From positions 372,001-436,000 of the forward strand of contig WRIS01000001.1 in NCBI GenBank assembly GCA_009782615.1: 64,000 nt of DNA. The letters run 5' to 3'. This document shows positions 11,281 through 14,601 of the stretch, in pieces (positions within the stretch are counted from its first letter, which is position 1; every line of letters begins with the position of its first letter). The position numbers were made by a program, and so were the translations under genes. The notes below the pieces were generated by a model. It saw only the letters and a program-made list of their open reading frames with translations. It was not told where the DNA came from and made no database searches. This DNA comes from Eggerthellaceae bacterium. Its GTDB lineage: Bacteria > Actinomycetota > Coriobacteriia > Coriobacteriales > Eggerthellaceae.

Positions 11281-11309
11281 TTGTTTATTATTATATATAC
11301 TTATATAAT
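11281..11309 (+). promoter_or_regulatory. Sigma70-type promoter of the relB antitoxin gene
   Basis: TTGTTT at 11281-11286 and a perfect TATAAT at 11304-11309 with a 17-bp spacer. The region continues into an AT-rich near-palindrome (TATATACTTATATAATG with TTTTTATATACC), a plausible autoregulatory operator of the antitoxin. An AAAGGAGG ribosome site follows at 11324-11331, five bases before the ATG. Confidence 0.7.
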
Positions 11310-11335
11310 GTTTTTATATACCTAAAGGAGGCCAC

Positions 11336-11614
11336 ATGAGCACAAAATTAGTTACCTTCAAAATGGACGAACAGGTCAAAAATGATTTTGATTCCTTTTG
11401 CCTTGAAGTTGGTCTCAGTGCTTCGGGCATGTTCAACATGTTCGCTCGAACCGTGATTCGCGAAAAAAGAATCCCGTTTGAAATTAATGCGGATCCGTTT
11501 TATGGGGAACGAAACACCCGAGCGCTTTTGGAGTCCATAAAAGATGCCGACGCAGGAAAATTTGCCGCCACGGCAACGGTTGATGAATTTGATGCTCTGA
11601 TGGCTGGACTCTAA
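11336..11614 (+). CDS. RelB/DinJ-family antitoxin
   Basis: 92-residue antitoxin with an N-terminal ribbon-helix-helix DNA-binding part (MSTKLVTFKMDEQVKNDFDS then a helix pair to about residue 45) and a C-terminal toxin-binding tail. RelB/DinJ antitoxins repress their own operon and neutralise a RelE/YafQ-type mRNA interferase. Here the partner toxin downstream is reduced to 30 codons, so this is an orphan antitoxin. Strong ribosome site and promoter upstream are intact. Confidence 0.85.
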   Translation: MSTKLVTFKMDEQVKNDFDSFCLEVGLSASGMFNMFARTVIREKRIPFEINADPFYGERNTRALLESIKDADAGKFAATATVDEFDALMAGL

Positions 11615-11707
11615 ATGACAAAAGCATTTACTTTTACTACTGGTGCCTTGCGAGATTTAAAGGAATGGATTTTCTGCATTAAGGACAAAATCTCTACCAG
11701 GTATTAG
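11615..11707 (+). pseudogene. Truncated RelE/YafQ-type toxin remnant
   Basis: ATG directly follows the antitoxin stop (TAA-ATG), as in an intact relBE pair. The first 18 residues (MTKAFTFTTGALRDLKEW) have the expected toxin start, but the frame stops after 30 codons where about 90 are normal. From about 11657 the sequence is coding on the other strand, so the toxin appears cut by a rearrangement that brought in the minus-strand genes. Confidence 0.6.
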
Positions 11708-11950
11708 CTGTTCTGCTGGATAGGGAACTAAATTGTGCGCATCACTTACCGTTGATTCGACCACCTTTGTAATAGGATCAAAATACATCACCGCTGCACA
11801 ATGCGGTAAAGACCCAGCACCTTGCCAAGGCACACTAGAATCAGGAACAGACCCTTCTCTTTGAGCAAATCGATAAGAAGGACTGTAAAAATCATAGAAC
11901 TGATAGTCTTTTGAGGCAACGCGCTTCATGTAGTCAATTTTCATAGTCAT
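11657..11950 (-). CDS. Hypothetical protein, 97 residues, coupled to the upstream lipoprotein
   Basis: No family recognised. No signal peptide or membrane segment; rich in aromatic residues near the start (YQFYDFYSPSYRF). Its ATG overlaps the stop of the lipoprotein gene by ATGA, so it is either translationally coupled or is the second half of one protein split by a frameshift. Last gene of the group that starts at the poly-G promoter (12911-12939). Confidence 0.6.
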   Translation of the reverse strand: MTMKIDYMKRVASKDYQFYDFYSPSYRFAQREGSVPDSSVPWQGAGSLPHCAAVMYFDPITKVVESTVSDAHNLVPYPAEQLIPGRDFVLNAENPFL

Positions 11951-12330
11951 AGTTCAAAGCCAATGCCTGCCATTGATCCATTGAAGCGGTAATCACTGGT
12001 CAGCATAGTTCCGCCGAGGAGTTCTTCGTCAAAGACCTGAAAGCCGCTGTTTTCATAATCCATGAAGGCATTAATCAACACTGAATAGGCTTCTTCCCAT
12101 TCCTCGGGATTTACGACGGGTTCTTCCTCACCAGTGGGCGGCACGCTCGGCTGTGGCTGAGGTTGTGGCTGCGTTGGCGGCTCGATTCCGTAATTGCCAC
12201 ATCCTGCAAGCAGCACAAGCAGCGCCGCGGCAAGCGTCACCATAAAGATTATCGCCCCAAGCCGATTAAAAGCCTCTGGCTTCCGCTTTGGGTGTTGCAA
12301 GAAGCTTAAACATTCGATTATGTCTACCAC
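11947..12330 (-). CDS. Small lipoprotein with Pro-Gln linker
   Basis: 127 residues. After a 28-residue cytoplasmic stretch comes a hydrophobic segment ending in the lipobox VLLAGC, a linker of alternating Pro and Gln (PTQPQPQPQPSVPP) and an acidic C-terminal part of about 70 residues with no recognised domain. GTG start at 12330 after GAGGTG. The long N-terminal extension before the hydrophobic core is unusual; an internal ATG at residue 30 (MVTLAA) would give a more typical signal peptide. Likely anchored on the outer face of the membrane. Confidence 0.65.
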   Translation of the reverse strand: MVDIIECLSFLQHPKRKPEAFNRLGAIIFMVTLAAALLVLLAGCGNYGIEPPTQPQPQPQPSVPPTGEEEPVVNPEEWEEAYSVLINAFMDYENSGFQVFDEELLGGTMLTSDYRFNGSMAGIGFEL

Positions 12331-12393
12331 TTTTTCACCTCAAGATTCGTAGTGCCATTTTGTCAAACTAAACATAATAGGAGAGCTTCCCCA

Positions 12394-12783
12394 TCAAGAA
12401 CCTGCTGAAGCAGCTATTATAGAAACAATCATAGCCATCAAAGCAAAGCCAAGAAATGCCAGCCACAATATTTTCCCAATAGGATTTGGCTTCGGGGCGG
12501 GATCTAGATAGACGGCTGTGCCGCAATGTTGGCACACGGACTGACGAATGGATACGCTGCGATTCGCAAAGATTACGAGAAAAAGAACAACCCAGCCCAA
12601 AATCGGGATGAAGATAAGAGGGACAACAATCAATGCGTTTGCTACACCCAGCGGTCTTTGCACAATCATAGGAACAATGCTGACATAAGGACTATTACAC
12701 TGCGGACACACAATTTTTGGTGGATAAGGCATTCCGAAGTTGTTCGGACTCATAGTTTCCACGTTCGGAGTCATAGCTTCCAT
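12394..12783 (-). CDS. Zinc-ribbon membrane protein
   Basis: 129 residues from the ATG at 12783, chosen because AAGGAAG lies eight bases upstream. The N-terminal part is Met/Asn/Pro-rich, then a four-cysteine zinc ribbon split by membrane segments: CPQC at about residues 27-30 and CQHC at about 84-87, with a hydrophobic hairpin (ALIVVPLIFIPILGWVVLFLVIF) between them and another helix at the C-terminus. Such zinc-ribbon/TM proteins usually have no known role. Transcription appears to start from the promoter with a ten-G spacer about 130 bp upstream, and the two downstream genes may be in the same operon. Confidence 0.7.
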   Translation of the reverse strand: MEAMTPNVETMSPNNFGMPYPPKIVCPQCNSPYVSIVPMIVQRPLGVANALIVVPLIFIPILGWVVLFLVIFANRSVSIRQSVCQHCGTAVYLDPAPKPNPIGKILWLAFLGFALMAMIVSIIAASAGS

Positions 12784-12910
12784 GCTTAGCACTTCCTTTT
12801 GTTTTTCTGAGGTAAGCGCAACTCCAAGGTCGCTATCAAAACCATCTTGAACGCCGCCTTGCCTACCACCTTTTAATAACCAGAATCCGTTACTGCCTCT
12901 ATCTGGGCAA

Positions 12911-12939
12911 ACAATACCCCCCCCCCTACAAACTGTCAA
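12911..12939 (-). promoter_or_regulatory. Promoter with a G10 tract in a 17-bp spacer (candidate phase-variable promoter)
   Basis: On the minus strand: perfect -35 TTGACA (12939-12934), then GTTTGTA plus ten G residues (12933-12917, exactly 17 bp), then -10 TATTGT (12916-12911). It faces the zinc-ribbon/lipoprotein gene group. Homopolymer tracts in promoter spacers are the known basis of slipped-strand phase variation in other bacteria, because gain or loss of one base moves the spacer off 17. The rest of 12784-13143 holds no supported gene. Confidence 0.7.
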
Positions 12940-13143
12940 GCAGGGCTTATTCGCTGCATGAATAAATCCAACCAAGAAAACACATTCTGAGCAGCACAAG
13001 CGCCCAAACAAAAGAATATGTCGCCCCTCTTTCGGCTCCATACCTGTTCTTACTTACTTTTTAGGGATACGTTTTTGGGGGTCGATACAGTAAAATGTTG
13101 AGCAAGTGAAGCACAGGACTTGAGAGCGAGGAGTTATAAAACC

Positions 13144-14601
13144 ATGGGGGCAGCAACAACACAATACGCATCTAACGGCTCCGCTCAAGAAAGCCTGACC
13201 AAAAAGCCCTTGAAGTACCTTGGTTTTGCCCTTTTGCTCGCATGGCACTATTGTCTTTGGTTCGTTCCGCGCGCATTTTTCCACGTGCCCCTTCTCGACG
13301 ACAGCGTCACCTATGCATGGCTTATTAATCTCGCGGCGACCGTATGTGCGCTTTTCGTAATTGCAAAATTACTCGGGCGAAAGCGCCACCTTTCTGATTA
13401 TCGGTGGCTTTATTGGGCTGCGCCTCTTCTCACGGGCGTGGCTACCCTCGTTTTTCTCGTTGTTCCTCAGGCTTTTTCGATACGAGCCATCACTTTTTCG
13501 CTCCCCTTCTTCTTAGGGATAACCGAAGCTGTGATGTGGATTCTTTGGGGGGAACGCTACGCATCAATCAAGGCTAATTTCTCTATCAAGCATATCGGCA
13601 TGGTTTTCGGGCTGACCCTTATCTCTACCATCGCGATTGCGTCGTTTTTGCCGCCGCTTGTATCATCGGTCTTTGTTGCCCTGCTTCCCTTGGTCTCAGG
13701 CGCGTTGCTTTTGTATGTGACGAAAGAGCAAAAAACGCAAAAGGTAACGTATCCGCCCCTACTTCCAAAAAACACTGCAAAAGAGGGATTCAGAAACCTT
13801 ATCGTGGTGTGCATTATTTCCTTTGCCGCAAGCACTGCGTGTTATTTTCTCGCAGCCATTATCCCGTGGGAAATACTGCCCACGACTGAAGAGAGCTTCA
13901 CGGTTGGTATTGTGGGTGGCGCTATCCTTATTCTTGCGATTTCGACGATTTGTATTGCAGCCGCTAATCGCATCAACATCTTCAAGCTCTATCCCTGGCT
14001 TTTGGTGGTTGAGGTTATTGCCTTTGCCCTCTTCCTTGCCGAAACAAGCTATTATTTTCCTTCGTTCATTATGGCGCTTGCTGTTTCGTCGGTGTTCGAA
14101 ATTTTCCTGATTATGTATTTCGGCATCCTAACCTCAAAGGGATATATCCCTCCCGTTTGGGCATTCAGTTTTAGCGCAGGATTTATTCGAGCGGGCATTT
14201 TAGCAGGTAATTCCTTAGCAATTTTCTACGAACTCAACCCTGCCCTTGCCCAAGCTATCACGCCTGAAACTTGTCTGGTGTTTATCGCCATTCTTCTTGC
14301 CTTGCTGATTGCGCTCGTTAAGCAGGAATACAATATCGCAGCCCTCACTTCAGAACCCTTGAGTGGAGACGATTTGAAACGCATCTGCAATGAAATCACG
14401 AAAGAATTCAGTTTGTCGGAACGCGAATCGGAAATATTGTTCCTTATCGCTTCGGGCAGAACGGCCGATTCCATCGCCAAGAAACTTGTGATATCGCCCC
14501 ATACCGCGAACACCCATATTCGACATATCTACGAAAAGACGCGGATACATAAGCGCTCCGAACTCTTGAACTACATCAACATGCAGCGCTCCGACTACTA
14601 A
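13144..14601 (+). CDS. LuxR-family regulator with N-terminal 12-TM (MFS-like) sensor domain
   Basis: 485 residues from the ATG at 13144, preferred over the upstream TTG because GAGCGAGGAG lies about ten bases before it. The first 410 residues are hydrophobic and form about twelve membrane helices; the last 65 are a classical LuxR/GerE helix-turn-helix (LSERESEILFLIASGRTADS, then SPHTANTHIRHIYEKTRIHKR). This architecture, a membrane sensor joined directly to LuxR-HTH, is common in Eggerthellaceae, often beside respiratory or catabolic operons. It is a candidate regulator of the cai-type and fix operons; that link is inference. Confidence 0.9.
   Translation: MGAATTQYASNGSAQESLTKKPLKYLGFALLLAWHYCLWFVPRAFFHVPLLDDSVTYAWLINLAATVCALFVIAKLLGRKRHLSDYRWLYWAAPLLTGVATLVFLVVPQAFSIRAITFSLPFFLGITEAVMWILWGERYASIKANFSIKHIGMVFGLTLISTIAIASFLPPLVSSVFVALLPLVSGALLLYVTKEQKTQKVTYPPLLPKNTAKEGFRNLIVVCIISFAASTACYFLAAIIPWEILPTTEESFTVGIVGGAILILAISTICIAAANRINIFKLYPWLLVVEVIAFALFLAETSYYFPSFIMALAVSSVFEIFLIMYFGILTSKGYIPPVWAFSFSAGFIRAGILAGNSLAIFYELNPALAQAITPETCLVFIAILLALLIALVKQEYNIAALTSEPLSGDDLKRICNEITKEFSLSERESEILFLIASGRTADSIAKKLVISPHTANTHIRHIYEKTRIHKRSELLNYINMQRSDY

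Follow-up and report, generated by a model that had tools for sequence, protein, structure and literature searches.

The window is a 64-kb stretch (C1:372001-436000) of a 1.67-Mb, 15-contig assembly that is 93% complete. Over positions 12939-12911 its minus strand reads TTGACA-GTTTGTA-GGGGGGGGGG-TATTGT, in which two promoter-like hexamers are separated by a spacer of exactly 17 bp that ends in ten consecutive G residues. The features of the locus, in window coordinates, are the following.

12934..12939, minus strand: -35 hexamer TTGACA, perfect (sequence and 6/6 consensus match)
12917..12926, minus strand: G10 tract, the last ten bases of the spacer, abutting the -10 (sequence and homopolymer count)
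12911..12916, minus strand: -10 hexamer TATTGT, 4/6 to TATAAT (sequence and consensus match)
12784..12904, minus strand: predicted 5' leader of ~120 nt, its start placed near 12904 from the -10
12394..12783, minus strand: 129-aa membrane protein with CPQC, a hydrophobic stretch and CQHC (ORF and profile search)
11947..12330, minus strand: small predicted lipoprotein (lipobox LLAGC), probably the unit's second gene (ORF; lipobox from sequence)
11657..11950, minus strand: 97-aa ORF with a 4-bp overlap with the lipoprotein stop, no family (ORF and family search)
12394..13041, minus strand: 215-aa ORF, open across the tract at G10, the basis of a rival reading (ORF list)

Taken together, the -35 and -10 match the consensus at 10 of 12 positions. 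The initial annotation had described a perfect TTGACA and a TATTGT 17 bp apart with ten consecutive G between them, and direct reading confirms this. Its statement that no other ten-base homopolymer occurs in the window was also borne out, the runners-up being two T8 tracts. The location and spacing given there stand with one correction, which is that the promoter reads on the minus strand and transcribes toward lower coordinates. Scanning the region for the promoter consensus gave 2 promoter-like sites, no excess over the 3.1 expected in shuffles, and the case therefore depends on the G tract and its recurrence.

The promoter sits 128 bp upstream of the membrane-protein gene, which is separated from the lipoprotein gene by a gap of 63 bp; from this gap and the 4-bp overlap that follows we infer co-transcription of the three genes. 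The membrane protein gives a weak, sub-threshold LITAF-like match (E 0.031) and is an orphan, for which no relative turned up among the proteins of 138 genomes of the family or 398 of the class. The locus has no DNA match in the two other species of the genus, its products have no protein relative among the viral contigs searched, and a gap-tolerant promoter probe of viral contigs gave no match. PADLOC and PHROGs returned no convincing family for the locus products, which by sequence are a membrane protein and a lipoprotein outside any curated family, with a predicted surface role. The proposal that the promoter drives surface-type genes is plausible in so far as it concerns a membrane protein and a lipobox-bearing lipoprotein; its further elements, cell-surface exposure and co-transcription, are presumptive. 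Across 11300-13400, leader included, no Rfam element reached the gathering threshold. The leader does hold, at ~12842-12786 on the minus strand, a 19-codon ORF (ATGGTTTTG...TGCTAA) whose stop lies 2 nt before the membrane protein ATG, and which is possibly a coupled leader peptide.

The arrangement can be compared with two switches known from experiment. As at Neisseria meningitidis porA, a poly-G tract lies between the -35 and -10 elements; there the G count sets the spacing around 17 bp and expression is graded (PMC3639595, PMC7864442), being high at 11G, 2-fold lower at 10G and 13-fold lower at 9G (PMC3639595). At Treponema pallidum tp0126, too, the spacer holds a poly-G tract, the promoter works best at 17 bp, and a larger ORF crosses the tract (PMC7864442). 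The window site shares with these porA/tp0126-type promoters the flanking hexamers and a spacing at 17 bp. There are differences as well. The porA product is a proteobacterial porin for which switching was shown experimentally, a mutS mutant switching faster, whereas the window site precedes an orphan membrane protein and a lipoprotein in a genome with no MutS, MutL or NucS detected, and its switching is a prediction. The tp0126 gene belongs to a spirochaete, encodes an OmpW-like outer membrane protein and was studied experimentally, whereas the present switch is predicted from sequence.

We consider it probable, at roughly 0.8, that the site is a promoter of the porA/tp0126 type, phase-variable by slipped-strand mispairing and now at its ON length. 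In the proposed mechanism, a slippage-prone G tract would set the -35/-10 spacing of a sigma-70-type promoter, and RNA polymerase would contact the two hexamers best when they are 17 bp apart, the spacing given by the present G10, which is predicted to be ON. Slipped-strand mispairing during replication would add or remove one G, such that G9 or G11 (16 or 18 bp) should reduce expression and G8 or G12 (15 or 19 bp) should bring it nearly off. A clonal population would thus be mixed for a small envelope operon comprising the CxxC membrane protein, the lipoprotein and the small ORF. Slippage in this species, length-dependent transcription, the operon and any benefit are all elements that we infer. 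Against a switch of this kind, the -10 matches at just 4 of 6 positions, the predicted leader of ~120 nt exceeds that of most analogues, and the 215-aa frame is open across the tract.

The strongest competitor is translational phase variation, in which the gene would start at ATG 13041, the tract would occupy codons 39-42, and slippage would toggle the frame. The reading frame, 219 codons long, stays open across the tract at its present length, and among G9, G10 and G11 only G10 connects its two halves; the chance of such an open extension is about 1.7%. Coding-frame G10 tracts also exist elsewhere in this genome, in a Mur ligase gene (L041) and a gene for a ChW/LRR surface protein (L043). Against this, ATG 13041 lacks a well-spaced ribosome site, having an AGG one base ahead, whereas ATG 12783 has AAGGAAG suitably placed before it. 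No NCBIfam family matches the 215-aa reading, which leaves unexplained both a perfect -35 lying exactly 17 bp from the -10 and the existence of a second such promoter with no ORF across its tract. There is a precedent at tp0126, where annotation had wrongly drawn an ORF across the poly-G of a promoter (PMC7864442). Codon-usage scores are neutral between the promoter and ORF readings, the accepted gene itself scoring near zero. On balance we regard translational switching as unlikely, though the two kinds of switching could act jointly.

The phase-variable promoter can be further assessed from the G tracts of the whole genome, which were located by pattern search. There are 15 tracts of at least G8 (five G8, four G9, four G10 and two G11), 10 of them at least G9; A9 occurs only twice and no A tract is longer. 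Random sequence would be expected to hold ~37 tracts of eight or more and 2.3 of ten or more. The observed numbers are 15 and 6, fewer than expected in the first class but more in the second, and the distribution is therefore shifted toward long tracts; that 6 of 15 reach ten or more is an excess over geometric decay (P about 2e-4). As in contingency loci, then, the window tract is longer than eight and belongs to a genome in which long tracts exceed chance. One tract lies directly before the GTG start of a CDP-glycerol glycerophosphotransferase gene, one lies upstream of a gene for a repeat-domain adhesin-like protein, and another long tract is found at a signal-peptide protein gene at a contig end. 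Judged by their predicted products, the genes in or beside which the long G tracts lie are classic contingency genes, several of them envelope genes. We note that the Mur ligase tract (C1:477260) is a G10 in frame in the middle of the gene, an unusual position for a contingency tract. A ChW/LRR surface gene has its 5' end present in two copies, each with a G tract before the signal peptide, G10 at C1:519992 (L043) and G11 at C10:27676 (L050); the L050 copy is decayed and breaks off behind the signal peptide.

Two of the 10 tracts of at least G9 fall between TTGACA and TATTNT, for which the rough chance is about 1e-7. The second of these promoters, at C4:105116-105142, reads TTGACA-AAGCTA-GGGGGGGGG-TATTAT, with a G9 tract and a 15-bp spacer. 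No frame of at least 60 codons crosses its tract, and the next gene on the same strand encodes a 100-aa membrane protein. This promoter is predicted to be currently OFF, two G short of optimal spacing. A kinship between its product and the membrane protein of the window was considered and found unconvincing (E 0.055 for a single comparison).

The repair background was surveyed in the same genome and in relatives. MutS was detected in 0 of 21 genomes (this genome and 20 relatives), with positive controls detected in 11 of 14, and NucS exceeded the cut-off in 0 of 21, with positive controls found in 7 of 14, Corynebacterium glutamicum among them. MutL was not detected in this genome, the only one searched for it, with positive controls working. 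The assembly is 93% complete, yet the 20 relatives are likewise without detected MutS. With MutS, MutL and NucS undetected, slippage errors should escape known mismatch repair, giving the indel-permissive background found with contingency loci. In Neisseria, mononucleotide switching becomes 100- to 1000-fold more frequent once mismatch repair is lost (PMC3639595), and NucS, where present, leaves indels uncorrected (PMC8228993).

Other genomes were searched with the pattern TTGACA-N4-8-G8-N0-6-TATNNT, using the same pattern reversed as the control. The pattern matched 4 sites in 138 family genomes and 10 sites in the class, carried by 8 of 398 genomes; the reversed control gave 0 in both sets. 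At one of these sites, in a genome of the same order as the present one, 394 bp are identical to Enorma phocaeensis An718, which puts the present organism in the order of Enorma, the Coriobacteriales, though in another family, probably the Eggerthellaceae. Downstream of the class sites lie, among others, genes for signal-peptide or secreted proteins and one for a CWB2 protein of the cell wall. One downstream product (L177) is NYN-like and, judging from its sequence, cytoplasmic, and therefore not every case concerns a surface gene. When bacterial and archaeal genomes were scanned, at least 120 records came back, mostly real-looking promoters. Candidate promoters of this design occur in Clostridia, Bacilli, Saccharibacteria, Spirochaetes, Alphaproteobacteria and Coriobacteriales. 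Among the matches listed, the -10 is TATAAT in 60 of 138, where ~1 in 16 would be expected, and an ORF whose product has a signal peptide, a lipobox or a pilin-like N-terminus often begins ~40-60 bp downstream. Some genomes are especially rich, with 27 sites in a Candidatus Ancillula genome, 16 in Streptobacillus notomytis and 14 in a Clostridia MAG, against 0 in the control each time; in a few of these per-genome counts one site is counted double. The genomes were chosen for carrying the pattern, and the counts therefore describe abundance within carriers and not prevalence. In the Candidatus Ancillula MAG JAIRWY01 (L102 / L058 / L082 / L133), the 27 promoters are near-identical, mostly TTGACAAGC-G(9-15)-TGCTATAAT, all in one small genome. 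This set is, by its sequence pattern, a whole battery of putative poly-G spacer promoters.

This species is represented by one genome, and variation was gauged via analogues in other taxa. On the contigs that carry the poly-G promoters, the commonest spacing of TTGACA/TATAAT pairs that lack poly-G is 17 bp (13 of the 21 that fall within 14-21 bp). Spacers with poly-G range over 15-23 bp, and among the matches listed only 4 of 62 within 14-21 bp lie at 17 bp; the share at 17 bp differs between the two groups from the same contigs (Fisher p 6e-7). The search pattern limited the spacer range without forcing the spread, and it excludes tracts below nine. Related promoters also differ in G count. 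In differently named genomes, L065 has G9 and L107 G11 (79% over 213 bp); a single MAG holds the related pairs L075 G12 / L150 G10, L118 G10 / L162 G9 and L126 G10 / L127 G9. Within single genomes, the tracts run from G9 to G15 in the Ancillula promoters and from G8 to G11 in Streptobacillus. For the poly-G/TATAAT spacers among the matches listed, there are 15 at 16 bp, 4 at 17 bp and 12 at 18 bp. The shortage at 17 bp may be due to chance, to an effect of the search pattern or to selection against full expression. A case for selection against the full ON state from the 4 of 62 was set aside, since the pattern truncates tract lengths at nine.

These data bear on the possibility of a fixed promoter whose spacer is unusually G-rich and of constant length. 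It would fit a species known from one genome and a G10 that sits at the 17-bp optimum. However, long G tracts are in excess in this genome and lie at envelope genes, searches for MutS, MutL and NucS detected none of them, and the spacers of analogous promoters wander; we consider a constant length less likely still than translational switching. That a homopolymer came to lie beside promoter-like hexamers by chance, with which the regional consensus scan would be in keeping, is hardly credible in view of two sites in a 1.67-Mb genome, 10 against 0 in the class and 27 against 0 in the Candidatus Ancillula genome. The phase-variable promoter suggested by the initial annotation, on the other hand, is well supported by the recurrence of the architecture, the wandering spacers, the differing G counts of related promoters and the undetected repair proteins.

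That the window promoter is a fresh case of an established poly-G switch type is well supported, and the wider distribution is the more interesting result. We found no report of the architecture in Coriobacteriia in the open-access literature, which does not prove its absence. In Gardnerella, of the same phylum (Actinomycetota), homopolymer contingency loci are similar in that long homopolymers lie mostly upstream of ORFs, with lengths that vary between colonies; they belong to a different class, and no -35/tract/-10 architecture was noted for them (PMC11287997). Phase variation is known in the same class from Eggerthella lenta, where it is phage-borne and proceeds by DNA inversion and diversity-generating retroelements, not by promoter slippage (PMC8778435). 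We give even odds to the broader proposal that poly-G spacer promoters form a widespread, largely uncatalogued cross-phylum switch class, with dozens in some genomes, of which the window site would be one Coriobacteriales member, likely fast-switching without detected MutS, MutL or NucS.

If the switch is real, a mechanism already known from the meningococcus and the syphilis bacterium would here let clonal populations of a gut-type actinobacterium be mixed in envelope gene expression through a one-base change, one that ordinary annotation would overlook. The distribution suggests that poly-G spacer switches are widespread among host-associated bacteria and reach well past the pathogens of their first discovery. 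The pattern and its reversed control together provide a simple and specific sequence-only finder for such switches, and the apparent lack of MutSL and NucS makes these Coriobacteriales a natural place to test slippage where known mismatch repair is missing.

At window positions 11336-11705, a RelB-family antitoxin gene (Pfam E 4.7e-11) is followed by a ~30-codon truncated toxin-like remnant. This looks like a decayed toxin-antitoxin pair, convergent with the putative switch operon.
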